A stretch of DNA of 64,000 bases from Paragorgia papillata. Lineage: Eukaryota; Cnidaria; Anthozoa; Scleralcyonacea; Coralliidae. Location of the stretch: the NCBI GenBank assembly GCA_035771165.1, contig JAWNZC010000322.1:9561001-9625000 (forward strand), in the 5' to 3' direction. The stretch's first letter is position 1. Each line of letters begins with the position of its first letter. Shown here piece after piece: positions 33,779 through 50,981 of the stretch. The position numbers and the translations under genes were made by a program. The notes under the pieces were generated by a model. That model was not told where the DNA came from. It ran no database searches and saw nothing but the letters and a program-made list of their open reading frames with translations.

Positions 33779-33791
33779 AACCCTAAAAAAA

Positions 33792-33816
33792 ATTTGTATT
33801 CTTTTTGAATACAAAT
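33792..33816. terminator. 3' hairpin shared by two convergent genes
   Basis: Perfect 10-bp stem ATTTGTATTC/GAATACAAAT with a T5 loop. It lies 13 nt after the zinc-finger stop and 13 nt after the polymerase stop on the other strand. Confidence 0.7.
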
Positions 33817-33829
33817 CTTAAACTAATCT

Positions 33830-36800
33830 TTAAACATTTTTGGTTCTATAATGCCCTATCGCCAAGGTTGAAATCCCATCCTCTCCGATAACTCTCTTAT
33901 CATCTTCTGCGTTAAGGGCAATCTTGTTCATATGAATGGTGTAGACTTTGTGTTGATAGCTCCTAAAGGTGTTCATCCCTTTCATAAGGTTTTTTCCTGA
34001 GTGCAAGCATTTCTCATAATCCCCAAACTTGATTTCATCCTGGACAACTCTCTTCTTAATTCCCTTGCATCTTTTCTCCTCTTTGCACTCCATCAACCCA
34101 GTTTCTAGGTTTTTCTCCTCAGCCATCTTGATAGCATACAGCTTGGCTCGAAGTCCAACAAACCCTTTAATTTGTTTTGCTCCAGTCTCTGACTTCATCA
34201 TCCCAGGAACTTTCTTGTTTACCCCGCATTCTATACCACTTGGATGAGACTTACCAAAGTTACTGGTGTCAAAGTGGGTTTTAACATCTCCAGAAATGTC
34301 CTTGAAGAAATCTTCTGTTTTAATCTCGTAACAAAGGCTGTCCGTATCTGTAAACAACAGCTGAGCCTTAGGACCATACTTTGGTTTGATGTAGCCATAG
34401 TGGAAATCATACATGGTAATTTTACTCAAATCCAGAATGGCAGCTCCTGTAAAGATTGGCTTGTTAAGATTAACATAAGTTTTCTTCATATGGACAGCTC
34501 CCAAATTTTCATTAAATATGTTAATGGACTTGTAATTTGACCTTCTCGCAAGCTTTTCAAGCTGATCTGCCCAGGAGACGAGTCGGATATCTACTCTGTT
34601 ACGAACATTTTCCATTGTCTTACCGAAGACTGAGTTGTTCATTAACTTATAGAAATCCTTCTCAAAGTCATTGGAGGCCTCTGTTCTCAACCTTGTGTTA
34701 AGGTCGATAAAGGGTTTCATCCAAGCCTTTTCCACAAACTTAATTCCTCTGTGGAGCTTTAAAATTTTTAGCTTGTATTTCAAACACTGCTTTAATGCGC
34801 GGTAGTGGAGAGTATACTTCTTTTTGTTGTTAAGATTTGGTACTAGTTTTTGTACTCCATTAATCTCAAGTCTCTCAGCTGCGAAGGGGAGATCATTGTG
34901 GAGATCGTGTAAATCTTTAGGATACTCCAAGTCTACTTCTAGAAAGCATCCTTCTCCCTCTTCTCCATCTTTAGTTTCCACAAGGTACTTTTCCCAATCC
35001 ACCAGCTCTTCTTCTGACATCCACTTAAATCCACCTATTGGAAGGGGTTTTCTCATCGCATTTCCATATAGGTTGTTTGCATCTAAATATTCAATGAAGG
35101 AACTTTCCTGCTCTGGTTTGTATTCCTCCATATACTTGTTGTTTGCATTACCTTCTCGGTGGGTAATTGTCGAGATCCCTCCACGGATACTTTTTTCGAA
35201 GAACAAGTACATGTCAGGGTCTGTTAGTAGTTCCAGGTTCTGACCCATCTTCTGTAGGGAATTCCAAGCCAAACCAGGACTTGTGTAAGTCCACATTGGG
35301 TCTATCCCATAAGTTTCTTTGCTTGTTTTCCTAAAATTTTGGATTACATCTCCGAGAAGAACAGTATCCAGTTTGTTGTACAATTCCTGATATTCTCCCA
35401 TTGTCTTACATCTAAAGGTCTTCCAAACATTCTGAGCATGGGCATAATCCTCATCTGAAATACCAGTTCCATTCAGTTTTGAGTAGAACTCCTTTTTGGC
35501 TGGAAGTTGTGGATAGTTCAGCTTTTTCAGATCTGTCATGAAATCATAGGGAAATACCCCCTTTTTCTTTAACAGGTTTACACTCTCTTCTGGATGGTTA
35601 GCGAAGAATTTTTCTGTGTACACAAAAGCTGTTGAATCCAGGTTATTAACAAGAGAACTTAATGAACTTGCCATGAATTTTAGAGAATCCAGAAATCTTA
35701 GTTCTAAAGGAACCCACTTTTTCTTTAAATTTCCATCAGGTAATCTCTTTTTGTGCCAGCCACCATCCATCCATATCTTTTTACTAACGCTGATATACTC
35801 TTCGTCTGTTTTTGGTATACAGGTAATTGTACCTTCTGTTTCACCCAAACTTTCAATGATATGATGCATATCATAATTCATACTATTATGGGCCAGCACA
35901 GGAATATGTTTGGCATTACTCATTGAGTAGTTACAGATGTTATGAGCAGGTCCCCTATATTCTCCACTAAGATGGTTATGGTCTCTTACCCTATCTTTTC
36001 CTAACTCTTTCCCACAGACATAACAGTTTACAGCTGACTGGAAATCTTTCTCTTGGGTCTCACTTATGATAATTGGCTTTGGAGTTTTCATGTAGGTTTC
36101 CCAGATTTCCTTAGACTCAAGTTCCAAAGCTTCAACAAACATTTTACCGATATCCTCATGTTCGTATTTCTTGGTATAGCTTACAACTTTTCCTGGGTAG
36201 ATAGTTGGATCTGAGCATATAATTTGGAAACAGTAACCACTAGGAACATGTTTCTGGTATTTCTTGGTGAAACTCTTGTCTTCACTTTGCTCCTTTGTAT
36301 CCAATGGCTTTAGCAAACACTCAAAATCATACACAATGATGAAGGGAACATCCTGGATTTTCTTGTAATCTTTCTCACTCCACCCCATGATATCATTCTT
36401 TCCTTTTGTAGGAAATATTTGAACCTGGGCATCATATTTTTGGCACAGCAACACATGCTCATCTTTGTTCTTTTCATTTCGAAATGGGTTTAAACAGAAG
36501 TTACAGTAAAACTTTTTATGTTCGTTGTTGTCAACTTGGCTTGTAAACAACCTACTTTTGTTCTTAATGGTAGCGTAATGGTTATTAAGCCAGAACAGGT
36601 CTACAACATTTTGGTAATCAGCCCTACTTGTTTGCATTGGGAAAACCTTTTGTATCTCAAAATCAAAACTAAAGACATTAACATTCGTCTTGTTCATCTT
36701 CTCAAATTTGGAAATGTCCTTAATTTTAAGAGGGAATTCCAGTCCTTTGATGTTGTATTTGGCTGCCTGTTCTTTAACAGCAGGTCCACATCTTTCTAAA

Positions 36801-37726
36801 TGGGAATCTCCTAGACCTCCCCTCAACATCTCAGCTATTGCAACAGCATATAGGAAACACTTGTTGTCCTTGTTTTTCGGATTGATGATGGCCTTTTTGT
36901 CCTGGATGACTTTTGGAAGGGGTTTGAAACCCTTTCCATTTAAAGGTCTATATTTTGTTATTAAAATATGAAGGCTTTCAACTAACCTTATTGACCATCC
37001 AGATCCCTTCTTTTGGTGGGCTGCCAGGTTTTCAAGCATCTCTTTTTTCATTATTTCATAATGTTCCCTAACATCTTCCTCTGTTATCATTGGCTTCATA
37101 TGGGTGGTGAAATAAAACTCATCAACATCTTCCCATCCAGCAGTATAATCATACTTTACAAGCTTGCACACCAGTGTTGGTTTTACCTTCTTAGGACCTT
37201 TAATACTGTTAATTAGGTTCTCAACAGTTTGTGTTGTTCTCTCTAAAAATACCGAAGGATCCCTAAATCCCTGTCCTGAAATTTCATACAAAGCTGCTTT
37301 CCCATTAGCGAAATCTCTAATGAGTTTTGGCTCTGTTTCCCTTAGTTTTTTGAATTCTCTTGTTCTTTTGTTGAAAATCCTTCCAAGCTTGTTCCCAAGT
37401 ACCTGTCTGGTTTTAGCAGTCTTAGCAGTCCCTTTCCACTTTAGCTGCCATCTTAATTTCTCAGCCAACTTTTCTGCTTTCCTTGTTGCTTTCCTAGCAA
37501 CCTGTTCTGCTTTCCTTGCTTCTTTTCTGGCAATCTGTTCCTGTTTCCTTGCTTCTTTCCTTACAATCTTTTCCTGCTTTTTGGCTTCCCTAAACTCCTT
37601 TTCCTGTTGAAGTTTAGCAAGCCTTTCAGGTTTAAACGGCTCCATTTTTCGATCTCTCTCACGTTGCCGTTGTTTTCGAAGACGGGCATTTTCCCGTTTT
37701 TCCAAAAGTTTAGTGTCAGTTTCCAT
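33830..37726 (-). CDS. Protein-primed family B DNA polymerase
   Basis: 1298 residues; replicates the element from a terminal protein. In order: a Lys/Arg-rich coiled coil (1-130); an OTU-like stretch (about 285-390) with NKCFLYA and NNHYATI at the positions of a Cys/His pair; a zinc knuckle C408/C411/H424/C428; exonuclease motifs I (D467-F-E469), II (HNSMNYD, 613-619) and III (Y783...D787); and polymerase motifs A (LDANNLYGNAM, 881-891), B (KLMNNSVFGKTMEN, about 1027) and C (TDTDS, 1126-1130). An HNH/endonuclease VII-like zinc motif (C568, C571, RDHNH 581-585, C598) lies between Exo I and II. All catalytic motifs are intact. The start at 37726 follows TATAATAAATGG. No separate terminal protein gene is seen; the basic N-terminus is a candidate. 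Confidence 0.95.
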   Translation of the reverse strand: METDTKLLEKRENARLRKQRQRERDRKMEPFKPERLAKLQQEKEFREAKKQEKIVRKEARKQEQIARKEARKAEQVARKATRKAEKLAEKLRWQLKWKGTAKTAKTRQVLGNKLGRIFNKRTREFKKLRETEPKLIRDFANGKAALYEISGQGFRDPSVFLERTTQTVENLINSIKGPKKVKPTLVCKLVKYDYTAGWEDVDEFYFTTHMKPMITEEDVREHYEIMKKEMLENLAAHQKKGSGWSIRLVESLHILITKYRPLNGKGFKPLPKVIQDKKAIINPKNKDNKCFLYAVAIAEMLRGGLGDSHLERCGPAVKEQAAKYNIKGLEFPLKIKDISKFEKMNKTNVNVFSFDFEIQKVFPMQTSRADYQNVVDLFWLNNHYATIKNKSRLFTSQVDNNEHKKFYCNFCLNPFRNEKNKDEHVLLCQKYDAQVQIFPTKGKNDIMGWSEKDYKKIQDVPFIIVYDFECLLKPLDTKEQSEDKSFTKKYQKHVPSGYCFQIICSDPTIYPGKVVSYTKKYEHEDIGKMFVEALELESKEIWETYMKTPKPIIISETQEKDFQSAVNCYVCGKELGKDRVRDHNHLSGEYRGPAHNICNYSMSNAKHIPVLAHNSMNYDMHHIIESLGETEGTITCIPKTDEEYISVSKKIWMDGGWHKKRLPDGNLKKKWVPLELRFLDSLKFMASSLSSLVNNLDSTAFVYTEKFFANHPEESVNLLKKKGVFPYDFMTDLKKLNYPQLPAKKEFYSKLNGTGISDEDYAHAQNVWKTFRCKTMGEYQELYNKLDTVLLGDVIQNFRKTSKETYGIDPMWTYTSPGLAWNSLQKMGQNLELLTDPDMYLFFEKSIRGGISTITHREGNANNKYMEEYKPEQESSFIEYLDANNLYGNAMRKPLPIGGFKWMSEEELVDWEKYLVETKDGEEGEGCFLEVDLEYPKDLHDLHNDLPFAAERLEINGVQKLVPNLNNKKKYTLHYRALKQCLKYKLKILKLHRGIKFVEKAWMKPFIDLNTRLRTEASNDFEKDFYKLMNNSVFGKTMENVRNRVDIRLVSWADQLEKLARRSNYKSINIFNENLGAVHMKKTYVNLNKPIFTGAAILDLSKITMYDFHYGYIKPKYGPKAQLLFTDTDSLCYEIKTEDFFKDISGDVKTHFDTSNFGKSHPSGIECGVNKKVPGMMKSETGAKQIKGFVGLRAKLYAIKMAEEKNLETGLMECKEEKRCKGIKKRVVQDEIKFGDYEKCLHSGKNLMKGMNTFRSYQHKVYTIHMNKIALNAEDDKRVIGEDGISTLAIGHYRTKNV

Positions 37727-37889
37727 TTATTATAGTGTTAAAAAAATTATTAAAAATACTTTAACAAAAATCGATTTAAAATCCTTACTAATAAAGGAAC
37801 CAAACAACATTATACTTCCTTTTTTTAACTTGTTTTTTGTAATCTTCGCAAATATCCTGTTGAAGTTAAGCCTTTCAGTTTCCGTTACA

Positions 37890-37913
37890 TTTCCTATTCA
37901 AAAGAATAGGAAA
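37890..37913. terminator. 3' hairpin after the 37950 gene
   Basis: Perfect 10-bp stem TTTCCTATTC/GAATAGGAAA with an AAAA loop, 36 nt past the stop at 37950. The stem sequence is related to those at 38707, 38906, 48185 and 50949. Confidence 0.65.
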
Positions 37914-37949
37914 TTTGAAGAATGAAGGTTCTCACTCCGTTCGAGGATT

Positions 37950-38369
37950 TCACTCTGCCTCGGAAGAACTCCGACTAACAGTTTGTATCTCACCCCTGTA
38001 AAGAATGAATGTTCCTTTTTTTATATAGTATGGAATACAACTAGGATTTTTATTTAAACAGGATGCTGCTCTGTAAATACTATGGAATTTTGTTTTTTTT
38101 CCATCCAAACCTGTAAATGTTATTCCAACAGGATTTTTAATTTGCTCTCTGTTGCATCTGTCAAAGATTTCATTCCTAACCAATGGAATATTAAGACTTT
38201 CACAGAGTGTTTTTAGGTCCATTTTGTAAGCCCCCTTTACCCCAATTTTTTTAGCTAGGGTTCTTAACTCTGATTTGGGGTGGTTGCAAATAGGGTTTTC
38301 CTCACGAATTTTTTTTAATTTTTCACCAAATTTTCTTCTTTCATCCATTCTTATTTTAAACATTTCCAT
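37950..38369 (-). CDS. Possible SAP/NUMOD-like DNA-binding protein
   Basis: 139 residues, unnamed. Residues about 32-62 (LRTLAKKIGVKGAYKMDLKT) resemble a SAP or Rho-N helix-turn-helix-like DNA-binding motif. Residues about 80-130 (a LDGKKTKFHSIYRAASCL core) resemble a NUMOD1-type helix-turn-helix module known from homing endonucleases. Both calls are by eye and tentative. A nucleic-acid-binding role is likely; no nuclease core is visible. The start is 7 nt after the stop of the 38377 gene, so they form a pair, closed by the hairpin at 37890. Confidence 0.6.
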   Translation of the reverse strand: MEMFKIRMDERRKFGEKLKKIREENPICNHPKSELRTLAKKIGVKGAYKMDLKTLCESLNIPLVRNEIFDRCNREQIKNPVGITFTGLDGKKTKFHSIYRAASCLNKNPSCIPYYIKKGTFILYRGEIQTVSRSSSEAE

Positions 38370-38376
38370 TGTTTTA

Positions 38377-38697
38377 TTATATTGGTTTTGGCGAAGTTTT
38401 TGGCAAAGTTTTTGGTGAAGTTTTTGGTGGGGTTTCAGAAGGCTTTGCCAACGAATTTGTTAAAGGAGGGTTTAAAGAAGGGTCTAAAGGTTTTGGAAAA
38501 TTTTTTTCCAAACATTTTTTTGAAGAAACACAAGAATAATTTTTTACTATTTTGTTTGTCCACCCTATTTGAATATTTCCCTCCATTGTTAAATCTTCCT
38601 TTCCAAAACTTATTCCAAATTGGAACCCCTTTCTTAGGGTATGGTTTTTGTTAAATTTTTCTTTTGGTTTTGCAATGCTGCTTTTAGAGTTTCCCAT
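38377..38697 (-). CDS. Probable N-myristoylated small protein with Pro/Lys-rich tail
   Basis: 106 residues. The N-terminus MGNSKSS fits the myristoylation signal MGxxxS. The C-terminal third is a KTSPKTLPKTSPKP-type Pro/Lys/Thr repeat that could be a linker. No enzyme motif. Myristoylation would direct it to membranes, which in a virus-like element suggests entry, assembly or inner-membrane contact; this is inference. AATAAA lies just before the ATG (TAATAAAAAATG). Confidence 0.6.
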   Translation of the reverse strand: MGNSKSSIAKPKEKFNKNHTLRKGFQFGISFGKEDLTMEGNIQIGWTNKIVKNYSCVSSKKCLEKNFPKPLDPSLNPPLTNSLAKPSETPPKTSPKTLPKTSPKPI

Positions 38698-38706
38698 TTT
38701 TTATTA

Positions 38707-38731
38707 TTTCCTAACCAACAAGATTAGGAAA
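38707..38731. terminator. 3' hairpin after the 49-codon gene
   Basis: About 8 bp of stem, TTTCCTAA/TTAGGAAA, 12 nt past the stop at 38743 and just before the next start at 38697. Confidence 0.55.
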
Positions 38732-38742
38732 CTAACAACTTT

Positions 38743-38892
38743 TCAGTTCCTGTGTGGGATTCCGTAGCTGTTTACAAACCATTTTTTATCAGTATCAAAT
38801 CTTTTTTCCCTTAGGGTCCAACTTTTTCTTAGGTTTTTGTTTATTCTATCTTTCCTTTTTTTTCTAACCCAACTAAAAATATTCCACCACAT
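38743..38892 (-). CDS. 49-residue basic, Trp-containing peptide
   Basis: Short gene below usual ORF cut-offs. The frame runs from the ATG at 38892 to TGA at 38743 and begins MWWNIFSWVRKKRKDR. It is strongly basic (many Lys/Arg) with an amphipathic Trp-rich N-terminus. Support: the ATG is preceded by TATAATAAATG exactly as for larger genes, and hairpins flank the frame on both sides (38906 upstream, 38707 downstream). A DNA-condensing, virion core or membrane-active peptide are all possible; no homologue is claimed. Confidence 0.55.
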   Translation of the reverse strand: MWWNIFSWVRKKRKDRINKNLRKSWTLREKRFDTDKKWFVNSYGIPHRN

Positions 38893-38905
38893 TTATTATA
38901 AAGAG

Positions 38906-38933
38906 TTTCCTAATCCAACAAAAGATTAGGAAA
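38906..38933. terminator. 3' hairpin after the 38960 gene
   Basis: Perfect 10-bp stem TTTCCTAATC/GATTAGGAAA with an 8-nt loop, 27 nt past the stop at 38960. The stem matches the 38707 one almost exactly. Confidence 0.7.
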
Positions 38934-38959
38934 ACAGTAAAAATTTAAGTAATAACAAC

Positions 38960-39481
38960 TCAACTGTTATTGGAATCAGCAACATTGCCACTATCGACAT
39001 TTTTGCTAGGATCCTGATTACTTTGTACAAACTCATTTTTATTTGATGGTTTTTTCACTTCAGCTTCACCCCGATCCCAAACATGTTTGGCTACTATTAT
39101 TCCACCACATAACAATCCAATCATTGGAATATAGGGCGATATTTTTGATACCAGGGATTTAACATCATCGCAAAATAGTTTGTTTGTTGATAATTCTTTA
39201 TCCAGTTTTTCATCATCTTTTATCAAATCTAACTGTTCCATTAACACTGAAAATTTGTTTATAAGGGTTTCTGTTAACACACTGTTAACTTTGTCTTGTT
39301 GTACCTGATCATAATTTAACTTAATTTTTTCAAGTGCCGCCAATGAGGCTTTTTTAAGATATGGTTCCGAATGTTTAATTTTTTTTTCGGAAGAAAGCCG
39401 GATAAGCTCTTCCCTAAGGTTTAAATTTAGCGGATCTTTAAATGGATCTTCTTGAAAGTCTTTATTTTGTTTTGGTTCCAT
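38960..39481 (-). CDS. Unknown protein with one membrane segment
   Basis: About 173 residues from the MEPKQ start at 39481; an upstream in-frame ATG at 39508 would add nine. I prefer 39481 because it follows AAATAAAT-type sequence and overlaps the previous gene by only 20 nt. The N-terminal two-thirds is acidic, Lys/Leu-rich and helical. One hydrophobic segment (about YIPMIGLLCGGIIVA) lies near residue 120-135 and a polar Asn/Ser tail follows. No family recognised. It ends the integrase - membrane-protein - this gene cluster, with the hairpin at 38906 after it. Confidence 0.6.
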   Translation of the reverse strand: MEPKQNKDFQEDPFKDPLNLNLREELIRLSSEKKIKHSEPYLKKASLAALEKIKLNYDQVQQDKVNSVLTETLINKFSVLMEQLDLIKDDEKLDKELSTNKLFCDDVKSLVSKISPYIPMIGLLCGGIIVAKHVWDRGEAEVKKPSNKNEFVQSNQDPSKNVDSGNVADSNNS

Positions 39482-40766
39482 ATTTATCTTTGTATTCTTT
39501 GTAAACAATATAGGTGAGTCCTATTGCAAGAACCCACAAATTCTTTGCCAACCATGCTATTCCTTTTGCTCCCCAAGATAATGCAGTTGCAAGTATGTTT
39601 AAAATTGGAACCAATATAGGCAAAGCAGTTTTTGCAAGTTTTGCTAAAGCCTTTCCTAATGCTCCTGTTGCCTTTGCAGCTGTTACAACCCCTGCTTTCC
39701 CAGCCAGTGCCACTGTTGTTATAATTCCAGCGATGGAAATGGCTATTGCAGCTGTTACACCCATATTTTCTTTTGCCCATTCTTTAAATTTTTCAAACCG
39801 TGTTAAGGTATGGTTTTTAATCCTTTCTTTTGTTTCTTCATATTTTGGTTCCATATTAGCCTCTAGCCTAAGAGAGTCAGATTTAAGTTTACACACATTT
39901 GCGAAATTTGTATTATGTTGTTTTTTCTTTGCATCTGTCTCCTTATTGGCTAGGTCTGTATAGTAATCTACATTAGTATCTAGAGCCCCAGTTGCCTCCT
40001 CAACAGATCCTTTGGGGTTCAAAATTCCAGCCAAATTACGTAATCTTTCGGTGTTTTCTTTACTACTTTCACCACTACTTTCTAGTTCATCCTGTAATAT
40101 TATGACTTCATTTTCTAGGTCTTCGGCAACTGTTTTTTGAACTGCTTCGGCGGCTTGGGGGCTTATTTTTTGTTCATTTTCTATAATTCCAGCTCCAGTT
40201 TTTAAATATTCACCACTTGCTTTTTTTAACAAATTTTTAAATATTTTAATTTTGTTCTCAACTTTTGTTCCTTTTCCTTTGGAGTACTCAAAATTGCCGG
40301 TATTGGCATCTCTAACCAAAACTAGTACACCTTCAAACTTAAGTCCATCAATCTCAAATGTTTTTGGATCGTAGGTAAATATACTTTTTTCATACAACTT
40401 TTTTCCACTACCTTTCTTATTTACTGTTTGACTTAACTCATCATAAAAAAAGTTTTTTTTTGTTCTTGTAGCGTCTAAACTTTGTCTTCTGGACTCGCCT
40501 GCTACAAAGGTTTTCAGTCTTTTTTGAAATAATTTATCCGACTCATCTTTATATTGTACAGGTTTTTTACTAAGTCTTTCCCTCATTTCATTTCTTTCAT
40601 TTTCACCAACTAGTGTAGGACCATCATCAAAAACCTCATTATATTTATCAAAAAGTTTGTCAAGCTCTTCAAAATAGGAAGGGCCAAAAGATGTCTCAGC
40701 CTCCTCTTCTTGTTGTTCTGCGACATTATTAGGTTTTAAATTTTGTAGTTCAATAGTTTCAGTCAT
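39462..40766 (-). CDS. Putative virion membrane-active structural protein
   Basis: 434 residues. The N-terminal 300 residues are acidic, charged and helical. The C-terminal 110 residues are strongly hydrophobic and amphipathic: a Gly/Ala-rich helix around residue 345-360, then GKALAKLAKTALPILVPILN and ALSWGAKGIAWLAKNLWVLA segments ending at a basic tail. Polinton-like proteins of this shape (long polar region, hydrophobic C-terminus) are common in invertebrate genomes; I suggest, without proof, a membrane-disrupting or internal virion protein. Its start overlaps the integrase stop by 8 nt. Confidence 0.65.
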   Translation of the reverse strand: MTETIELQNLKPNNVAEQQEEEAETSFGPSYFEELDKLFDKYNEVFDDGPTLVGENERNEMRERLSKKPVQYKDESDKLFQKRLKTFVAGESRRQSLDATRTKKNFFYDELSQTVNKKGSGKKLYEKSIFTYDPKTFEIDGLKFEGVLVLVRDANTGNFEYSKGKGTKVENKIKIFKNLLKKASGEYLKTGAGIIENEQKISPQAAEAVQKTVAEDLENEVIILQDELESSGESSKENTERLRNLAGILNPKGSVEEATGALDTNVDYYTDLANKETDAKKKQHNTNFANVCKLKSDSLRLEANMEPKYEETKERIKNHTLTRFEKFKEWAKENMGVTAAIAISIAGIITTVALAGKAGVVTAAKATGALGKALAKLAKTALPILVPILNILATALSWGAKGIAWLAKNLWVLAIGLTYIVYKEYKDKYGTKTK

Positions 40767-41739: not shown

Positions 41740-41757
41740 TTTTTATTTAAATAATAA
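41740..41757. promoter_or_regulatory. 18-bp bidirectional promoter gap
   Basis: TTTTTATTTAAATAATAA separates the divergent integrase (minus) and 467-codon (plus) genes. It supplies an AATAAA-type block to both: minus reads AAATAAAAA before ATG, plus reads AATAATAA before ATG. Because no gene ends here, the AATAAA blocks cannot be poly(A) signals for an upstream gene, so they are better read as start elements. Confidence 0.6.
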
Positions 41758-43161: not shown

Positions 43162-43169
43162 TAAAAGGA

Positions 43170-43934: not shown

Positions 43935-43944
43935 ACAGTTTAAT

Positions 43945-43971
43945 ATTTTGTAACCCAAAAAGTTACAAAAT
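43945..43971. terminator. 3' hairpin shared by convergent genes
   Basis: 10-bp stem ATTTTGTAAC/GTTACAAAAT with a 7-nt loop, 10 nt past the plus-strand stop (43934) and 7 nt past the minus-strand stop (43979). Confidence 0.75.
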
Positions 43972-43978
43972 TTTTACC

Positions 43979-44377: not shown

Positions 44378-44392
44378 TTATTAATTTTGTTT

Positions 44393-44413
44393 CCATATCC
44401 TTTTTGGATATGG
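44393..44413. terminator. 3' hairpin after the 44427 gene
   Basis: Perfect 8-bp stem CCATATCC/GGATATGG with a T5 loop, 13 nt past the stop. Confidence 0.6.
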
Positions 44414-44426
44414 GTACATTTTTTGC

Positions 44427-44864
44427 CTAATCACTCATTTCGCCTGTATCTTCAATTGGGAGTCTCTCCCGTGGAGGATCCTCTACCCTTTTCAAAAATT
44501 TTATTTGAAACTGGGGGAACCTCTCTTTTTTCTTGTTAGCGAACACCTGGTTGATCTCTACTTTCAGATCAACATGGCACAGTCCTTCGCTGAGATCTTT
44601 CTTGTTTTTTCTGCTTAGATCCTCTTCGTTAATCTTAAAAGATATTAAATTTTCAAAATCTCCAAAAAATGGAGTGTCTTTGGTTGGCTTGAGTTGGCTC
44701 CAGGCTGCCAAAACATTTTCACAGTTTTCGTCGCTCAGTTGGATGGTCAGTCTGAAACCACTTTTTAGTTTTCCTTTAAATGTGTTGGGTTTTAATCCAA
44801 AGCACTTGGTTTGTTTAAATTTTAAGGTAATTGGTTGTTCCAATTTTTCAAATAATCCGTTCAT
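44427..44864 (-). CDS. Unknown soluble protein with acidic tail
   Basis: 145 residues. Mixed beta-rich sequence (LKFKQTK, GFRLTIQLSD, VDLKVEINQVF, QFQIKFLK) and an acidic C-terminus ending EDTGEMSD. Beta-strands with an acidic tail recall single-stranded-DNA-binding proteins, and a protein-primed replicon needs one, but no OB-fold signature is certain. ATG preceded by AATAAAATAGAGAGAAGT-type sequence, with AATAAAA about 10 nt upstream. Confidence 0.55.
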   Translation of the reverse strand: MNGLFEKLEQPITLKFKQTKCFGLKPNTFKGKLKSGFRLTIQLSDENCENVLAAWSQLKPTKDTPFFGDFENLISFKINEEDLSRKNKKDLSEGLCHVDLKVEINQVFANKKKERFPQFQIKFLKRVEDPPRERLPIEDTGEMSD

Positions 44865-44914
44865 ACTTCTCTCTATTTTATTATCACCATTTTAAAAATT
44901 AAAATTCAATTTAA

Positions 44915-44947
44915 GTTAAAAAAACTTTTTTTTAAAAAAAGCTGAAC
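44915..44947. terminator. Possible weak AT hairpin after the 44948 gene
   Basis: TTTTTTTT/AAAAAAA runs can pair just past the stop at 44948. Weaker than the other hairpins and low-complexity. Confidence 0.3.
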
Positions 44948-45172
44948 TTACTTTGGATCCAAATTTTTGGGTAAGTATCCTTTTTCTTGCGCCATTTTTA
45001 CTGAAAATAATCCAACAGAGACAGCTACTCCAAGTTTGGCTGTTTCTTTAAGACTGGCTGGTGCTGCTAGAGATTGGCCTAATACCTTTTTGAAAACCAT
45101 GCTTGTTCCAACAGCTGCAAGTGTAATTAATGCTGCCTGATACAAGTCATTTAAAACTTCGTTCTTATTCAT
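44948..45172 (-). CDS. Small two-segment membrane protein
   Basis: 74 residues with two hydrophobic segments: YQAALITLAAVGTSMVF (about 11-28) and TAKLGVAVSVGLFSV (about 44-58). C-terminus LPKNLDPK. Similar tiny membrane proteins sit next to capsid genes in other invertebrate Polintons, as I recall. Start follows CTTAATAAATG. Confidence 0.6.
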   Translation of the reverse strand: MNKNEVLNDLYQAALITLAAVGTSMVFKKVLGQSLAAPASLKETAKLGVAVSVGLFSVKMAQEKGYLPKNLDPK

Positions 45173-45195
45173 TTATTAAGGGTAAAATTTTTAAT

Positions 45196-45222
45196 ATTTT
45201 GTAGTTTTTAAAACTACAAAAT
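45196..45222. terminator. 3' hairpin after the 58-codon gene
   Basis: 13-bp arms ATTTTGTAGTTTT/AAAACTACAAAAT around one base, 22 nt past the stop at 45245. Confidence 0.7.
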
Positions 45223-45244
45223 GTTATTAGAGGGTACAATAATT

Positions 45245-45421
45245 TTAGAAGATTTTCAAAATTTCTACTACTTTCACATAGTTCTTTAAAGCTGCTATTA
45301 AGTCATTTAACACCACTTTTAAGTTTGTTAAATTTTGGTTTTTTTCTTTTTTTAAAGTTACTTTTAAGTTTACCATGTCATTTAACACCCCTTTAATGGT
45401 TTCTAAATTTTGGTCAATCAT
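45245..45421 (-). CDS. 58-residue coiled-coil peptide
   Basis: Short gene below usual ORF cut-offs, from the ATG at 45421 to TAA at 45245. The sequence is Leu/Val/Asn/Lys-rich with a duplicated K-(G/V)-VLND motif at about residues 10 and 35, giving a heptad-like pattern. The ATG is preceded by TATAATAAAAGAC, and the 3' hairpin at 45196 follows. It begins 25 nt after the penton gene stop. Likely a small oligomerising or virion protein; function unknown. Confidence 0.55.
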   Translation of the reverse strand: MIDQNLETIKGVLNDMVNLKVTLKKEKNQNLTNLKVVLNDLIAALKNYVKVVEILKIF

Positions 45422-45446
45422 GTCTTTTATTATAGTTTAAATTTTC

Positions 45447-46091
45447 TCATATTTCAAAATTAATTGGACATAAAAAGATTTCAAGAAGGATATTTCCAAC
45501 ATTTTCATCTGTTTTGAATTTAAGTTCGTTGTAAATTCCATTGTCCAACATGGCTACAGAATTAATGTTATCAAACTTTTCAACAGATCCCTTCAATATT
45601 TGTTTTGTTGTAATTGGGAGAACAGCAGCAGTTCTATCCCGTTTTCCATAAAATGAGGTTTTTGTTCCATCAATCATGTTGCAAGTTATGCATACAAATC
45701 TCATTCCAAGATTTATGTTGACTGTTTCTGGACTGTCTTGGCTTGCTCCTTTTTTAATTATTGCTGTTTCTGGAAATCCTAGCAAAGGGCCAAGTTTTAA
45801 CAATGAAAGATTTTCTGCTGGTATTATTTTAATTTTACAGCTGTAAGGTAACAACTCAGATTTTATTTCATTTTCCTTTAATCTTTCCATAATCATGCCA
45901 ACAGTCCAATAACCATTGTTGAAACTAACTTTTTTTGTTCCATGCATAATATATGTTGGACTTGTTATGTTGTTAAAGTTCCAAAACACTGTTGCATTTT
46001 TTACTAACATTTTAGTGTCTTCAATGATTAAAGGATCTTCAAATTTAACAGTTGTTTCCCCATTTTTAAGCAAGATTCTTAGGTTCCTCAT
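45447..46091 (-). CDS. Probable minor capsid (penton) protein
   Basis: 214 residues with a beta-rich pattern and the LGPLLGFPET motif near residue 104, typical of Polinton minor capsid proteins of the single-jelly-roll type, which form the penton vertices. The adjacent order ATPase - minor capsid, next to the major capsid gene, is the usual Polinton layout. Start overlaps the ATPase stop by 26 nt and follows ACAATAAATG. No membrane segment. Confidence 0.75.
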   Translation of the reverse strand: MRNLRILLKNGETTVKFEDPLIIEDTKMLVKNATVFWNFNNITSPTYIMHGTKKVSFNNGYWTVGMIMERLKENEIKSELLPYSCKIKIIPAENLSLLKLGPLLGFPETAIIKKGASQDSPETVNINLGMRFVCITCNMIDGTKTSFYGKRDRTAAVLPITTKQILKGSVEKFDNINSVAMLDNGIYNELKFKTDENVGNILLEIFLCPINFEI

Positions 46092-46704
46092 TTATTGTAT
46101 CCATAGAAATAATTTGGTAATGGTATGGGTAAACCAGGTTAATTTCTAGTCTTGAATATTCCCGGGATCTCAACATCTCTTTAATTTTTTTCTCTTCTTC
46201 TTTTGGTATGTCCAGGTAATCATCTAAGATAACCTGCATGTCTTTTCTGTTTGGGTTGTAAAATGTAACCAGTTTGGAAATATTTTCCCGATATGGTTTC
46301 GCAATGCTGGTCAGTTGTTGGGTAACAACTATTGTACTAATATTCATATGTCGGGCACCAAAACCAAGTTTAACTAACTCACTAGTCCTGTTTTTAACAG
46401 TTTGTCCTGAAGCACAGTCATCCAAAATAATTAACGAAGGTCTTCCTTTACAGTAGTCCACAACATATTTTAAAAAATCTTCGGACTCATCTTGGTCGCA
46501 AGGAATAACAAAAAATCTTGGGTCATTGAGGTGTTCCCATTCAAGATATGTTTTGTTCCATTCAAAAGTAGGACAAATTAAAAATATATTTTCAAATTTT
46601 TTTGGGATTTCTTCTAACATTTTTAGCAAATAGTGGGTTTTTCCACAGCTTGTCATTCCAACAATGATCATATTAAATGGTTTAATGGTGTTTGAGGGTT
46701 CCAT
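46066..46704 (-). CDS. FtsK/HerA-type genome-packaging ATPase
   Basis: 212 residues. Walker A GMTSCGKT (16-23) and Walker B LIILDD (91-96) with a downstream VVTQQ (126-130) match the A32-like packaging ATPases of Polintons and related viruses, which pump DNA into preformed capsids. Length is usual for the family. Start follows AAAATAAAAATG, 7 nt after the major capsid stop. Confidence 0.93.
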   Translation of the reverse strand: MEPSNTIKPFNMIIVGMTSCGKTHYLLKMLEEIPKKFENIFLICPTFEWNKTYLEWEHLNDPRFFVIPCDQDESEDFLKYVVDYCKGRPSLIILDDCASGQTVKNRTSELVKLGFGARHMNISTIVVTQQLTSIAKPYRENISKLVTFYNPNRKDMQVILDDYLDIPKEEEKKIKEMLRSREYSRLEINLVYPYHYQIISMDTINEEPKNLA

Positions 46705-46711
46705 TTTTATT

Positions 46712-47923
46712 TTAGTAATTTACACTCTGGAATGCTCCTCCTTGGACTTTTAGGAGTCCATCCGAAAGAATGAAAACATGGCATTTAAGGTCAGCTGATG
46801 TTGCCTTCTTTGTAATTTCCAACATGATTCCGGACTGGGTTGTTAAAAGCCTGGTACCATCTCCATACACATCGTTGTCATTGATCGAACGAAGATCTAC
46901 AACAAGCGCGAATTTCTCTTCTGTGAAAAACTCCTCAGCTTGGATGGTGGGATAATTTGTTTGTCTGAAAAGTCGTTCAGCCTCTTCAAACAACCTCCGT
47001 TTTGGAATTCCTTGGGAGTAAATACTGTTTGGAACTCCTTCAATAGTAATTTTTACATTCTCAATGTTTGGGTAAACAAACTCTTCTGATCCATCTCTGG
47101 AGGCTTTTGTAAACAACATTACAACAGCCTTCATGCTCTTTCTTGGTAAATTAATGGTTTCGTTAATTAGAGTTGTTGCTCTTGCCCATGGTGAGGTTTT
47201 CATCAGGGTTACATGTTCGAAGGAAAGGGCTCGACCCACTTGGTAGGAAGATTCTATTTCCTGAACTAGGGAAAAGTTTGTAATGGTTTCGTACTCAAGT
47301 TCAATATTTTCAAGTGAGTAACCAGCCACAGATTGACTACTTTGGGCTTTCATAATATTGGTGGCTTTTGGCAATGTAATAATATATTGTAAGTCATTTG
47401 CCATGCTGTGGGGGGCATACAATCCGTGGTCCTTTAAAATTTTACCCAACTGGATTCGTTGTTTTGTTCCATAAACAGCTGCATATGAGTCGGAAGAGGC
47501 ATCATCAGATTTTGAAATAAGTTTTCTTTGGTTTTCTGTGGCAACACCATCTTCGATCATATTGGCTCTTTCGTGTTTGTCTATCCACAAATCCTTGTAT
47601 GTTTCCAGAAGACTTTCTCCTGTGTTGTCGTAAACTTTTTCGCCTGCAAACCTGACTTCCAAGCGTTCTTGTAGTTGTTTTGCAAGGTTGTTATTAAACC
47701 AAGATTTGGTATTTTTGTTCTTAAAGTCAAACAGAAGAAACATCTTGTCAGGAACTAAGGTTGCTCCAGGTTTAAGTTTTGGAATATGTATGTAAATTAC
47801 TTCTCCTTCATTAGCCGAATTAGGGTTGAAAGTAATTACATTTCGGGCTCGTTCTCCGGTTATTGTACTTTTGTGTAAACGGTTATAACCAGGAATTAGT
47901 TCAACTTCTCTTTCGGTATTCAT
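46712..47923 (-). CDS. Probable double-jelly-roll major capsid protein
   Basis: 403 residues, no membrane segment, beta-rich. Recognition rests on length, position directly before the ATPase and minor capsid genes, and segments such as ALVV..L, LQYIITLPKATNI and LENIELEYETI that I associate with the Polinton major capsid family; no single diagnostic motif is claimed. Forms the icosahedral shell. Start follows TATAATAAATG. Preceded by the short 47945 gene with a 21-nt gap. Confidence 0.72.
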   Translation of the reverse strand: MNTEREVELIPGYNRLHKSTITGERARNVITFNPNSANEGEVIYIHIPKLKPGATLVPDKMFLLFDFKNKNTKSWFNNNLAKQLQERLEVRFAGEKVYDNTGESLLETYKDLWIDKHERANMIEDGVATENQRKLISKSDDASSDSYAAVYGTKQRIQLGKILKDHGLYAPHSMANDLQYIITLPKATNIMKAQSSQSVAGYSLENIELEYETITNFSLVQEIESSYQVGRALSFEHVTLMKTSPWARATTLINETINLPRKSMKAVVMLFTKASRDGSEEFVYPNIENVKITIEGVPNSIYSQGIPKRRLFEEAERLFRQTNYPTIQAEEFFTEEKFALVVDLRSINDNDVYGDGTRLLTTQSGIMLEITKKATSADLKCHVFILSDGLLKVQGGAFQSVNY

Positions 47924-47944
47924 TTATTATAGTAAAAATTTTGT

Positions 47945-48169
47945 TTAGTTTCTTTCTTCGTCTTCATAGTCTTCTGGCATTAGACAGTCAAAATCTGACC
48001 AAAGATGGTAACATTGGTTTTCATCATAGTTTAGATCATATTTACTATACAGTAACCAAAGTTTGTATCCTTCATAACTTCCTTTCGAAATAAGGTAAAT
48101 AAGCTTTCCTATATTAAACCAGTTTTTACTTCCAAAAACACATTCGGCTGCATAACTGTTAACGATCAT
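47945..48169 (-). CDS. Small protein resembling a PriCT-2 module
   Basis: 74 residues. The middle and end (SYEGYKLWLLYSKYDLNYDE then CYHLWSDF) resemble PriCT-2, a small helical domain found C-terminal to viral and plasmid primases. No primase domain is present, so it may work in trans or as a remnant. The C-terminus is acidic. It is the first gene of the capsid cluster. Confidence 0.5.
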   Translation of the reverse strand: MIVNSYAAECVFGSKNWFNIGKLIYLISKGSYEGYKLWLLYSKYDLNYDENQCYHLWSDFDCLMPEDYEDEERN

Positions 48170-48184
48170 ATTTTTTATTTGAAT

Positions 48185-48206
48185 TCCTATCCTGTTATGG
48201 ATAGGA
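48185..48206. terminator. 3' hairpin after the 48224 gene
   Basis: Perfect 8-bp stem TCCTATCC/GGATAGGA, 17 nt past the stop. Stem related to 37890 and 50949. Confidence 0.6.
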
Positions 48207-48223
48207 TTTCATTTTTGTTTATT

Positions 48224-48595
48224 TTAAAGATCATATTGGGAAAGGTCTTTGTAAACTGTTTTTACCTTAGGAATTTTGTCGGGTCCAGGGTCCTTGCAGT
48301 CTGGATCCTTTTTTCCCCAATTACTGTATGCAATATAGGTTAGTAGGAGTGTACAACAAGTTCCAAGTATTGTTCCAGTAAATGTTATTAAAGATGTTGG
48401 AGACATTTTTTCGGCTTCTTCTGGGATTGTTTCCAACTGTTGTTTTTTCTTTAGTTTTGCGGCCCTACTTATTGCAGCCAGTTTTTTTCCTTGGGCAACT
48501 CTTTTTGGATTTTTGGTGCGGACAGGTGGAGGGGTTTTTGTAATAGTTTGTTTTTCTTCACTTTTTTCACTTTGTTTACTTTGTTCTGCTTCCAT
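48224..48595 (-). CDS. Basic small protein with one membrane segment
   Basis: 123 residues. A charged Lys-rich N-terminal half contains NPKRVAQGKKLAAISRAAK, a motif I recall from small proteins of many Polintons. A membrane segment (SLITFTGTILGTCCTLLLTY, about 68-88) follows, then a polar tail. The basic part could bind DNA while the hydrophobic part contacts membrane. Start follows TTAAATAAATGG. Confidence 0.6.
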   Translation of the reverse strand: MEAEQSKQSEKSEEKQTITKTPPPVRTKNPKRVAQGKKLAAISRAAKLKKKQQLETIPEEAEKMSPTSLITFTGTILGTCCTLLLTYIAYSNWGKKDPDCKDPGPDKIPKVKTVYKDLSQYDL

Positions 48596-48602
48596 TTATT
48601 TA

Positions 48603-48706
48603 ACAACTAGTTTAAATTTGTTCAGCAACTAGTTTAACAACTAGTTTAAATTTGTTCAGCAACTAGTTTAAATTTGTTTAACCAGCAAAGCCAACTAGTT
48701 TAAAAA
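48603..48706 (-). repeat. Five-copy CAACTAGTTTA repeat
   Basis: CAACTAGTTTA recurs five times with AAATTTGTT spacers between genes; the last copy overlaps the stop region of the 48700 gene. AACTAGTT is self-complementary, so the block can form alternative hairpins and stands where a 3' hairpin would be expected. Confidence 0.8.
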
Positions 48707-48909
48707 ACAGTATCATATACACCTATCCGTGTTAGCATTTTTATTGGGTCTTCATTGGGGTGTAAATAATTACAAATATTTTTATGGCTTATGTTGTAGT
48801 ATATTTTTTCTATGGAGTTGTCTGTTGCTGTTTTAATAACAGCCTCAACCAAAACACATTGGTATCCAAATTTACATTTTAAAACTTTTGAAAATTCTTT
48901 GGAGTTCAT
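48700..48909 (-). CDS. Unknown 69-residue protein
   Basis: Cys-containing, soluble, with no recognised motif. It follows the collagen-like gene by 5 nt and its ATG is preceded by AAAATAAATG, as in neighbours. It ends at the repeat block 48603-48706. Confidence 0.5.
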   Translation of the reverse strand: MNSKEFSKVLKCKFGYQCVLVEAVIKTATDNSIEKIYYNISHKNICNYLHPNEDPIKMLTRIGVYDTVF

Positions 48910-48914
48910 TTATT

Positions 48915-50105
48915 TTAATTAATCTTAAGCAGGTTAATTTCAACATCCCGCACATCAAAAAACAAAAAGGTATAGTCATCTCCAACCGAACCAGAATAAC
49001 AATGTAAAGATACTTTGGTTCCCTTTATTATGGTTGCAATGGCTTCGCAAAATATATGGTGGGGTTTTGTTTCGTAATATGTTTTACCCATGGTTAGGGT
49101 TTCCAAATCCGCAAGTTTGTTTGATCTTATATTAACATCTCCATGGTAAAGATCTGTTTTAAGGTCAAAATATGCTCTATATGAAGAAGCCCACCAACCA
49201 GTTTGTTTAGATTGTTGGTCTATTTTATGCCCATCTGGTTCTAGTGTAAACCAATATTTTATTAAAAATTTTCCAGATTCTGTTGCAGTAAATGTTAGCA
49301 AAGTGCTTTTGTTATTTGTGTTATCCCAACTACCTGCTTTATAGCTTGTTTTTCCACTACCTTTTCTATACTTTACCACCTGTGTAAAATTTCCAGCTTG
49401 TCCTGTGGCTCCAGTAACTCCTCTTAAGCCTCTGATACCTCTTTGTCCAGTTGTTCCTTTTGGTCCTGGTAGTCCTTGGGGACCTGTTAAACCTTTGTCT
49501 CCTTTGTTACCAGGGTCTCCTTTGTCTCCTTTGGTTCCTTGGGATCCTTGGGGTCCTTGGGAATCTTGGGGTCCTTGGGAACCTGTGTTACCAGTGTCTC
49601 CTTTGTCTCCTTTGGATCCTTGTGGACCTGTTGCCCCAGTGTCTCCTTTGTTTCCTTTTGCTCCATCATCACCATGGTCTCCTTTGTCTCCTTTTTGGGC
49701 TGTTGCGCCTGCCATACCCTTGTCTCCTTTGTCTCCTTTGGTTCCTTTTGTTCCCATGGTTCCATGGTCTCCTTTATCTCCTTTGGGGCCACCAGATCCT
49801 GTGGAACCTGCTAAACCCCTGTCTCCCCTGTCTCCTTTAAGTCCTTGGGGTCCTCTAATACCATTATCTCCTTTGTCTCCTTTGGAACCAGCTGCTCCTG
49901 TGTTGCCAGTGTCTCCTTTGAACCCCTGTGGTCCTGCTAAACCAGCTGCTCCTGTTGCCCCAGTGTCTCCTTTGTCTCCTTTGGGTCCTTGGGGACCTGT
50001 TACCCCAGTGTCTCCTTGGGGCCCCTGTGGGCCTGTTTCTCCAGTGTCTCCATCCTTTCCATAACTTGGAAAATCTGGATCATCATATCCATAGTAATAA
50101 CTCAT
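48915..50105 (-). CDS. Collagen-like virion surface fibre
   Basis: 396 residues. Residues 16-238 are about 74 Gly-X-Y triplets with two interruptions (a missing Gly near GATAQKGD and near PQDSQG). Residues 239-396 are a beta-rich globular end like C1q/TNF-type or fibre-knob domains. N-terminus MSYYYGYDDPDFP is shared in form with the next gene upstream. A trimeric shaft with a C-terminal head fits a receptor-binding fibre. The repeats are GC-richer than the rest of the element. Confidence 0.75.
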   Translation of the reverse strand: MSYYYGYDDPDFPSYGKDGDTGETGPQGPQGDTGVTGPQGPKGDKGDTGATGAAGLAGPQGFKGDTGNTGAAGSKGDKGDNGIRGPQGLKGDRGDRGLAGSTGSGGPKGDKGDHGTMGTKGTKGDKGDKGMAGATAQKGDKGDHGDDGAKGNKGDTGATGPQGSKGDKGDTGNTGSQGPQDSQGPQGSQGTKGDKGDPGNKGDKGLTGPQGLPGPKGTTGQRGIRGLRGVTGATGQAGNFTQVVKYRKGSGKTSYKAGSWDNTNNKSTLLTFTATESGKFLIKYWFTLEPDGHKIDQQSKQTGWWASSYRAYFDLKTDLYHGDVNIRSNKLADLETLTMGKTYYETKPHHIFCEAIATIIKGTKVSLHCYSGSVGDDYTFLFFDVRDVEINLLKIN

Positions 50106-50111
50106 GTTTAT

Positions 50112-50927
50112 TTATATAAAGTTTCCATATTCTTTCATCATATCCTTATTAATTTTTACAATCTCAGCTGGAAGTAATGGTCCATGAATAATTTTAATCC
50201 CATATATTTTTCCTTTAAGCTGGTAATCATTTGAGGGGGATCCACTCATTCTTTTATTTAAAAATACAGATCCAAATGGACTACCTATATCTGCTAAATC
50301 CGATTCAAATTCTGATCCTGCCAACTTTTTACCATTTAAATATATAATTCCTCCAGTTCCCAACCAATGGCATGATATAATGTGTTTGCTAAGAATGCTG
50401 TGTGAGGCGTTCATATTTATAGTTTTTTTATTACCATCTATACCACCAATTATTAATTTGGAGTAAGAGTAGGATTTAAAGCTAATATATTTATCATAAT
50501 TACCATTATCATTCCCAATAAGATAACACCAGTCGTTAGAAACCGATGTATCTACTACCGCGCAAACAACAAAAACAGAAACATCATTAAACTGCATTTC
50601 AGTGTTACAAAAACACATGTAGTTGCCTCCCTTGTTCTCAATGTAATCTTTGCCTGGACCAGCAGCATCTGAACCAAATGTTGGGGCATGGGTTTTATCA
50701 TTTTGCCATAAAACAGATTTTCCATTTCGGGCTCGGGTTATTCTTTTTTCACCGTTAACAGTTTCAAAGGTTTTGTCAGCAGTTGTCAAGTTAACATCAA
50801 AAACAGTTTCGTAATTTCCTTCCACACCCAGATTTTTTATTTTCTTTTCAATGTCTTTAATTCTCTTTTCGGTATCGCTATGTTGTGCATTATGTCGGCG
50901 ACTACCATAACCATAGAAGTAACTCAT
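50112..50927 (-). CDS. LamG/ConA-like lectin fibre protein
   Basis: 271 residues. N-terminus MSYFYGYGSRRH is like that of the collagen-like protein. A short coiled coil (EKRIKDIEKKIKNL, about 20-35) precedes a domain (about 40-260) with the look of a laminin-G-3/concanavalin-like lectin: YICFCN-type start, INMNASHSI, GGIIYLNGKKL and a final KGKIYGIKIIHGPL strand. Probably a second receptor-binding spike. Gap to the collagen-like gene is 6 nt. Confidence 0.7.
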   Translation of the reverse strand: MSYFYGYGSRRHNAQHSDTEKRIKDIEKKIKNLGVEGNYETVFDVNLTTADKTFETVNGEKRITRARNGKSVLWQNDKTHAPTFGSDAAGPGKDYIENKGGNYMCFCNTEMQFNDVSVFVVCAVVDTSVSNDWCYLIGNDNGNYDKYISFKSYSYSKLIIGGIDGNKKTINMNASHSILSKHIISCHWLGTGGIIYLNGKKLAGSEFESDLADIGSPFGSVFLNKRMSGSPSNDYQLKGKIYGIKIIHGPLLPAEIVKINKDMMKEYGNFI

Positions 50928-50948
50928 TGTTTATTTAAAGGGTTTAAA

Positions 50949-50971
50949 TTCCTATCCAAAAAGAATAGGAA
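50949..50971. terminator. 3' hairpin after the 50982 gene
   Basis: Stem TTCCTAT/ATAGGAA with a short loop, 10 nt past the stop and 21 nt before the next start. Confidence 0.55.
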
Positions 50972-50981
50972 ATTATGTAAG

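Follow-up and report, generated by a model that had tools for sequence, protein, structure and literature searches.

Hairpins past the gene ends of a Polinton in Paragorgia papillata as candidate 3'-end signals

Background

How an element of viral type ends its messages when it resides in an animal genome bears on whether Polintons still act as viruses in animals and on how they are expressed. This question is raised by a 64,000-nucleotide stretch of the Paragorgia papillata genome (the window), for which an original prediction, made from the letters alone, placed nine short hairpins just past the ends of genes or gene clusters and none inside clusters. A hairpin rule for 3' ends was reportedly described for Mimivirus by Byrne in 2009.

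Results

With respect to its identity, the element has long terminal inverted repeats and a 6-bp target duplication and carries an rve integrase and an A32-like packaging ATPase as expected of a Polinton/Maverick, although the integrase scores below Pfam's curated cut-off (Table 1). The polymerase and capsid proteins belong to large homologous families, yet are named by no Pfam model; we take them to be a protein-primed PolB and a double jelly-roll capsid protein, respectively. A stretch of the polymerase protein matches Endonuclease_7 weakly and below the Pfam cut-off. Of the 26 element ORFs, 20 were scanned against Pfam, and no family of RNA polymerase, RNase III or poly(A) polymerase was found among them. 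The G + C content of the element is 0.348, i.e., it is AT-rich.

The protein of gene g254 (43170-43934) looks weakly TFIIB-like, the TFIIB zinc ribbon model PF08271 matching three of the 13 members of its family (best E 0.006) but not the window's own protein. A search of the protein database with its profile yielded no relative, and sequence comparison with solved structures found no TFIIB. A VLTF3-like assignment was rejected, as profile comparison gave a Prob of 0.10 on a scale of 100.

Table 1. Coordinates of the element, its main genes and its hairpins in the window; p values are from shuffled gaps.
Feature	Position	Strand	Description
Polinton element	32922..52619		19,698 bp; exact 6-bp direct repeat AACGCA on both flanks; from TIR alignment and target-site check
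Left terminal inverted repeat	32922..33529		608 bp; 99.5% identity to right repeat
Right terminal inverted repeat	52014..52619		from TIR alignment
DNA polymerase B, Polinton type	33830..37726	-	putative; large homologous family; weak Endonuclease_7 match
rve integrase	40759..41739	-	PF00665, E 9.2e-6, 26.3 bits; Pfam cut-off 32.6
g254, 254-aa protein	43170..43934	+	zinc ribbon (C31 C32 C45 C48 invariant) and helical domain; weakly TFIIB-like
A32-like packaging ATPase	46066..46704	-	Pox_A32, E 8.1e-18, well above cut-off
Major capsid protein	46712..47923	-	putative; homologous family found
Hairpin 1	33792..33816		common to convergent zinc-finger gene and PolB; stem ATTTGTATTC, loop TTTTT; p 0.002
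Hairpin 2	37889..37914	-	after gene 37950-38369; stem ATTTCCTATTC; p 0.002
Hairpin 3	38707..38731	-	after 49-aa ORF 38743-38892; stem TTTCCTAA; p 0.006
Hairpin 4	38906..38933	-	after gene 38960-39481; stem TTTCCTAATC; p 0.001
Hairpin 5	43945..43971		common to convergent genes 43170-43934 and 43979-44377; stem ATTTTGTAAC; p 0.003; covariation
Hairpin 6	44393..44413	-	after gene 44427-44864; stem CCATATCC; p 0.002
Hairpin 7	45196..45222	-	after 58-aa ORF 45245-45421; stem ATTTTGTAGTTT; p 0.001
Hairpin 8	48185..48206	-	after gene 48224-48595; stem TCCTATCC; p 0.002
Hairpin 9	50949..50971	-	after gene 50982-51443; TTCCTAT stem; p 0.059; in 11/11 sequences
Palindrome repeats AACTAGTT	48596..48699	-	after 69-aa ORF; no typical hairpin, p 0.061
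Start motif AATAAA on both strands	41740..41757		18-nt divergent gap, no hairpin

A stem search of the window recovered all nine hairpins where they had been placed, with 7-35 nt between stop codon and stem; it likewise bore out that each of the two convergent gene pairs has one hairpin in common and that the TTTCCTA/TTCCTAT type accounts for five stems. Compared with 1000 dinucleotide shuffles per gap, eight of the nine have p values of 0.001-0.006, while the hairpin at 50949 stays at p = 0.059 because its stem is imperfect (a perfect 7-bp stem with a loop of 9, or an alternative longer fold that includes a G.U in the sense strand). Of four other copies, three carry AATTTCCTATAA/TTATAGGAAATT at the site of hairpin 2. 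The 49-aa ORF at 38743-38892 has similar hairpins on both sides.

The predicted link to cluster ends held in nine of the 12 gaps longer than 25 nt that contain a gene end, the stem density being 4.33 per kb in gaps that include a gene end and 0.125 per kb in coding sequence (gene calls using the AATAA motif), where the few stems include those at 33560, 35856, 38492 and 44550. The three other gaps lack a typical hairpin, so that the rule is not universal: 44865-44947 has poly-T/poly-A (p = 0.32), 51444-51485 consists of A and T only (p = 0.73), and at 48596-48699 the AACTAGTT palindrome repeats are a possible substitute structure. The predicted absence inside clusters was also found, with hairpins in none of the ten tight or overlapping junctions, but it is partly a matter of geometry, since most of these are too short and a gap below 25 nt cannot contain a hairpin of about 25 nt.

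The comparison was extended to 24 pieces of related copies. As searches of viral contigs (capsid alone and as alignment, ATPase, PolB) and of prokaryote genome contigs (capsid alignment) gave no confirmed relative, all DNA comparisons stay within one animal genome. The window and these pieces together have 147 gaps of 41-600 nt, which hold 71 hairpins, in contrast to 2.13 (sd 1.23, maximum 5) in 100 dinucleotide shuffles, an excess of about 33-fold. By this strict criterion 79 of the 147 gaps have no hairpin; relaxed stems occur in 86 of 125 gaps of 41-150 nt (5.9 expected). Another 21 hairpins fall in gaps above 600 nt and at unassigned ends, which were counted as edge. The perfect stems measure 7-13 bp and lie at a median of 14 nt past the stop codon. 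Since a palindrome could take either polarity, the composition of the 5' arm, which is pyrimidine-rich in 64 of the 71 hairpins, purine-rich in two and tied in five, counts as a bias. Convergent gaps have a hairpin in 12 of 12 cases by the relaxed and in 14 of all 15 by the strict criterion, as against none of three divergent gaps (gene calls again using the AATAA motif), the latter being weak evidence because these amount to only 356 nt.

At homologous ends, identified by homology-based gene calls, the hairpin is often kept with replaced arms (after g254 in 19/20 copies, g123 in 20/24 and g153 in 11/11), and other ends are mostly without one (hairpins after g74 in 1/24, g176 in 0/4, g69 in 5/15 and g59 in 4/13). 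Changes of the compensatory kind, which the original prediction proposed to look for in related Polintons, are seen at the convergent site of hairpin 5, where seven of 11 pairs are altered on both sides, 96.6% of cells are paired, and covariation amounts to 0.455 as compared to 0.143 in shuffled and at most 0.103 in slid alignments. No cell there is a standard pair altered on one side only, as would also be expected if a DNA palindrome were renewed in a single step. Hairpins and start motif are found in copies with capsid identities of 72% (L032), 74% (L030) and 89% (L031), and neither is present in the 3.9-kb piece of L029, at 54% the most diverged copy sampled.

The stems fall into few sequence types, one of which recurs at several different gene ends, and in sense orientation some loops are reverse-complementary between copies (g123 ATAACA/TGTTAT, g59 TAA/TTA, g153 TTTTT/AAAAA). 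A G.U bias as a sign of selection at the RNA level, suggested by a first count of 14 versus 6, was dropped because the scoring behind that count rewarded G.U; a symmetric recount of imperfect pairs in tandem gaps gave 16 G.U versus 20 A.C and thus no sense-strand bias, which leaves room for a role at the DNA level.

Gene starts carry a separate signal. An AATAAA-type motif, often TATAATAAATG and also given as AATAAATG, stands at 25 of the 26 element gene starts, in contrast to 11 of 650 other ATGs, and at 124 of 129 and 9 of 10 starts anchored by homology-based gene calls. Divergent starts, which have no gene before them, carry it too; in several tight junctions AATAAA lies just behind a stop codon.

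Other 3'-end signals were sought as well. After isolated gene ends, i.e., those with no near downstream start, the host poly(A) signal AATAAA was found within 100 nt in none of five cases, one having ATTAAA. Bacterial-type terminators (GC-rich stem plus T-tract) number 17 versus 16.9 (sd 4.8) in shuffles and are not enriched, and the window's hairpins are not consistently followed by a T-tract. Neither the histone 3' stem-loop nor any other Rfam family matched at gathering score in 32800-52800. Retrocopies in which poly(A) follows GTTACAAAA, one of the stem types, were sought by pattern; the five rows obtained lie at four places, none of which matches the element, and the reversed control pattern gave two. 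In a search for a helper virus, Pox_VLTF3 had six matches; the three pieces examined have Polinton-like neighbours and show no regular hairpins and no start motif. The NCLDV capsid search gave no match, its control being likewise silent.

Discussion

The excess over shuffles, the changes on both sides of stems and the presence of hairpins at 72-74% capsid identity support the view that the hairpins are genuine features under selection and are linked to the ends of gene clusters. As in the hairpin signals of Mimivirus type, a palindrome lies past gene ends more often than by chance, and its structure is kept rather than its sequence. Because convergent genes share one hairpin, AATAAA follows none of the five isolated ends and the start motif is separate, the ending of transcripts is the most economical reading, and the hairpins probably belong to a transcription punctuation that is the element's own, serving as its 3'-end signals. 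This suggests that the element would use its own signal to end messages in place of the one usual in animals. Each gene would then be started from its own motif, to which the TFIIB-like protein may recruit a polymerase, candidates being host Pol II and an enzyme from a helper virus; transcripts of tight clusters would read through to the next hairpin and have their 3' end in common there, the hairpin in the RNA being cleaved and/or halting the polymerase by analogy with Mimivirus, Pithovirus, the Sputnik virophage and yeast linear plasmids.

It is conceivable, though on balance we think it unlikely, that the palindromes act in the DNA instead of in RNA, as cruciforms or as recombination points between cassettes of one or more genes with start motif and hairpin, and that the Endonuclease_7-like stretch, weak and below cut-off as the match is, could be the enzyme acting on them. 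The lack of a G.U excess and of one-sided changes at the convergent site would agree with this, as would the reverse-complementary loops at g123, g59 and g153, which suggest hairpins inverted in place, the position of the 49-aa ORF between two similar hairpins and the recurrence of one stem type at several gene ends. However, the contrast between convergent and divergent gaps, weak as the latter sample is, would stay unexplained, and a separate start motif is not predicted. By a further alternative, AATAAA at a start codon would be the poly(A) signal of the preceding gene in host nuclear 3'-end formation, and the hairpins accessory elements of mRNA stability or export. An integrated element that lacks a polymerase of its own would by default be transcribed by host Pol II, and AATAAA just past the stop codons of several tight junctions would suit such a signal, but its presence at divergent starts and its absence within 100 nt after all five isolated gene ends make this explanation improbable.

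A chance or purely mutational origin has in its favour that the element is AT-rich and that template switching during replication, which might have made AT-rich stems perfect, can produce changes on both sides in one step; in view of the excess over dinucleotide shuffles, the bias in location and polarity and the persistence of hairpins with turnover in diverged copies, it is nevertheless very improbable. Intrinsic terminators of the bacterial type, with a GC-rich stem and a U-tract, would likewise be stem-loops located after stop codons, but given their lack of enrichment and the want of a regular T-tract behind the window's hairpins we attach next to no probability to them.

Returning to 3'-end signals, hairpin and start motif, both being conserved, offer precise, testable transcript boundaries for this Polinton family in its host, and if the reading is true, the link of animal Polintons with giant viruses and virophages would extend from capsid genes to expression signals. 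More speculatively, AT-rich animal Polintons might possess a complete virus-like transcription grammar in which each gene has a start motif, hairpins define the 3' ends and the element itself encodes a TFIIB-like factor, an extension that we hold possible but doubtful; it would imply a dedicated or helper-supplied transcription machine in place of ordinary host poly(A) sites, and thus elements that are virophage-like in animals.

Comparison with known systems

The poxvirus late promoter TAAATG overlaps the start codon, as does the start motif of this Polinton, which is a resemblance only. By titles and abstract openings, none of the matches listed in the open-access literature reports 3' hairpins in Polintons. 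As regards gene starts, Mavirus has a helper-type late promoter upstream of every gene (PMC6723459) and EMALE types have diverse promoter motifs (PMC8547959), to which the start motif found here is comparable; the EMALE paper nowhere uses the word hairpin in its main text (PMC8547959). In the yeast linear plasmids pGKL, stem-loops at a median of 26 nt from stop codons affect mRNA 3' ends, and, as in the Polinton, a separate initiator stands at gene starts; however, these plasmids have genes for an RNA polymerase and for a capping enzyme, show T enrichment at 3' ends, and have their stem-loops in neighbouring genes or terminal repeats (PMC6211774). The Sputnik virophage, a small relative of Polintons, has 3' hairpins too, but is a virophage of protists with a known helper, in contrast to an animal Polinton with no known helper (PMC6723459). 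In the virophage precedent, the 3'-end enzymes come from the helper. For Mimivirus both 3' ends at hairpins and the cleaving enzyme have been demonstrated, whereas the Polinton hairpins, which are of few stem types, are known from DNA, and no cleaving enzyme was found in the 20 of 26 ORFs scanned; nevertheless, the two have in common hairpin-forming palindromes past gene ends, an AT-rich genome and a stem sequence that is not fixed (PMC4402537).

The Polinton and its family

The Polinton (Table), residing in a host genome of 617.9 Mb, encodes a Pox_A32-type ATPase identified by Pfam scan, an rve integrase whose score lies under Pfam's cut-off, a collagen-like protein, and two proteins which we take to be the capsid and PolB, each with a large family of relatives. 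Named capsid relatives come from the octocoral Paramuricea clavata (52-63% identity), which makes a cnidarian host probable. Within the host genome, at least 103 copies of the capsid gene at 92-100% identity (the best scored of 1070 candidates) point to a family that is large, young and recently active; three of these 103 contain an internal stop and 100 do not. The 254-aa product of the gene termed g254 combines a zinc ribbon, probably of TFIIB type, with a helical domain that in structure comparison comes closest to TFIIB, TFB and Brf, at weak Z, and is a candidate element-encoded transcription factor.

Features of the Polinton (window positions)
Feature	Position	Remarks
Polinton	32922-52619	608-bp terminal inverted repeats with 99.5% identity; exact 6-bp flanking repeat AACGCA
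Hairpins	33792, 37889 (hairpin 2, to 37914), 38707, 38906, 43945, 44393, 45196, 48185, 50949
Gaps without typical hairpin	44865-44947, 48596-48699, 51444-51485	A/T tracts or AACTAGTT repeats
g254	43170-43934 (+)	candidate transcription factor
44-aa ORF in both terminal repeats	33341-33475, 52068-52202	start motif; outward reading
49-aa ORF between two similar hairpins	38707-38933	own start motif; resembles a small transferable cassette
153-aa protein	50982-51443	near-exact internal duplication of ~50 residues, seen in translation

Hairpins at gene ends

According to the original prediction, nine hairpins follow stop codons at the ends of genes or clusters and are absent inside clusters. The check listed perfect Watson-Crick stems of at least 8 bp, with 26 ORFs annotated and each gap shuffled 1000 times keeping dinucleotides; all nine hairpins are present, at 7-35 nt from the stop. 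Of 22 junctions containing a gene end, 12 exceed 25 nt, and the hairpins occupy nine of these, eight at p = 0.001-0.006 and that at 50949 at p = 0.059; none was found in the ten tight or overlapping junctions or the three divergent gaps of the window. At the gene end in 48596-48699 the palindrome AACTAGTT is repeated, and several other copies show AGCTAGCT-type repeats there.

The survey was extended to 25 sequences, comprising the window, 20 diverged right-hand pieces of related copies (L009-L028; 9.2 kb each, matched stretches mostly 75-92% identical) and four capsid-region pieces (L029-L032), and counting stems of at least 8 bp with at least two G-C pairs; small pieces (L033-L038) were taken in addition. 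In these 25 sequences, gaps with a gene end hold 72 hairpins (4.33 per kb) and coding sequence 22 (0.125 per kb). Hairpins are lacking from 80 gaps measuring 1-25 nt and 15 measuring 26-40 nt, as well as from 23 overlaps and three divergent gaps. The 147 gaps of 41-600 nt contain 71 hairpins, spread over 68 gaps and missing from the other 79; 100 shuffles gave 2.13 on average (sd 1.23) and never more than 5. Under a criterion that tolerates one mismatch or G.U, stems are present in 86/125 gaps of 41-150 nt (5.9 expected) and in 12/12 convergent gaps, and strict hairpins are found in 14/15 of all convergent gaps. By homologous end, presence is 19/20 for g254, 18/23 for g132, 20/24 for g123, 11/11 for g153 and 4/6 for g145, but 4/13 for g59, 5/15 for g69, 1/24 for g74 and 0/4 for g176; the rule is therefore strong at some gene ends and absent at others.

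In related copies the hairpin is retained, with its letters replaced, at ends homologous by protein similarity. Most copies have a TTTTGTAAC-like stem behind g254, others AATTCCTAATT, TATAACA, TTATTTCC, TAATTTCTATTC or TAATTCCTAGT, the partner arm matching in each, and at hairpin 2 three of four other copies have AATTTCCTATAA/TTATAGGAAATT. A MAFFT alignment of the g254 site, with 19 sequences of which 15 are distinct, shows pairing in 96.6% of cells and both-sided changes at 7/11 pairs (26 cells); covariation scores 0.455, versus 0.143 shuffled and at most 0.103 slid. These figures lean toward pairing because rows were pre-trimmed to the hairpin, and they come from mutually related copies.

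The start motif

Of the 26 annotated ATGs, 25 have AATAAA overlapping them or at most 20 nt upstream; five of the 26 ORFs, three internal and two located in the terminal repeats, are short and were selected by eye with knowledge of the motif. Control rates are 11/650 for other ATGs of the element and 35/1559 for those of the host flanks. Homology-anchored starts carry it in 124/129 cases (L009-L028) and 9/10 cases (L030-L032). As it is also present at divergent starts and missing within 100 nt past all five gene ends that have no start close by, AATAAA is associated with starts and does not resemble a poly(A) signal of the gene before it.

Subfamilies and cassettes

Both hairpins and start motif are present in L031, L030 and L032 (GC 0.33-0.35), whose capsids are 89%, 74% and 72% identical to that of the window. 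Between capsid and ATPase, L030 and L032 hold an additional gene accompanied by a hairpin of its own, as would be expected of a cassette. L029 (G000 C72) has a 414-aa capsid frame 54% identical to it and, with its neighbours L033 and L034 (GC 0.41-0.44), shows no AATAAATG starts and no regular hairpins; a single GC-rich stem is located directly at a stop codon of L033, so the hairpin rule may exist there in another form. Start motif and regular hairpins were likewise not seen in L039-L041 (G000 C23, C193, C154; GC 0.45-0.47), which may belong to another, higher-GC Polinton subfamily. These three carry partly decayed genes homologous to VLTF3, a late transcription factor of poxviruses and giant viruses (best E 2.2e-32), adjoining relatives of g132, g467 or g123, with PolB nearby by eye.

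Possible roles: transcript ends or DNA-level palindromes

The hairpins probably mark transcript 3' ends. The main rival, to which we assign a rather low probability, regards them as a DNA-level palindrome linked to cassette exchange. Sense-orientation loops are reverse-complementary between some copies (g123, ATAACA vs TGTTAT; g59, TAA vs TTA), as if the hairpin had been inverted. Selection on sense RNA should moreover give more G.U than A.C, yet a symmetric pair count in tandem gaps (57 distinct hairpins) yielded 608 Watson-Crick, 16 G.U and 20 A.C pairs; without a G.U excess, RNA-level selection is unsupported, and the hairpins may act at the DNA level.

The 5' arm is pyrimidine-rich in 64/71 hairpins and purine-rich in 2/71 (among 42 distinct arms, 38 versus 3, with one tie), and since a palindrome is identical on either strand, this polarity reflects a sequence preference beyond pairing. 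Strict hairpins have stems of 8-13 bp and loops of 3-10 nt, the upper bound being set by the search; spacing this variable makes a rigid dimeric DNA-binding protein less likely.

As to the reading as transcript 3' ends, the pattern in the Polinton is similar to the hairpin rule of Mimivirus (PMC4402537), to the gene hairpins of Sputnik, reported for 16 genes (PMC6723459), and to the stem-loops of yeast linear plasmids, located at a median of 26 nt from stops (PMC6211774).
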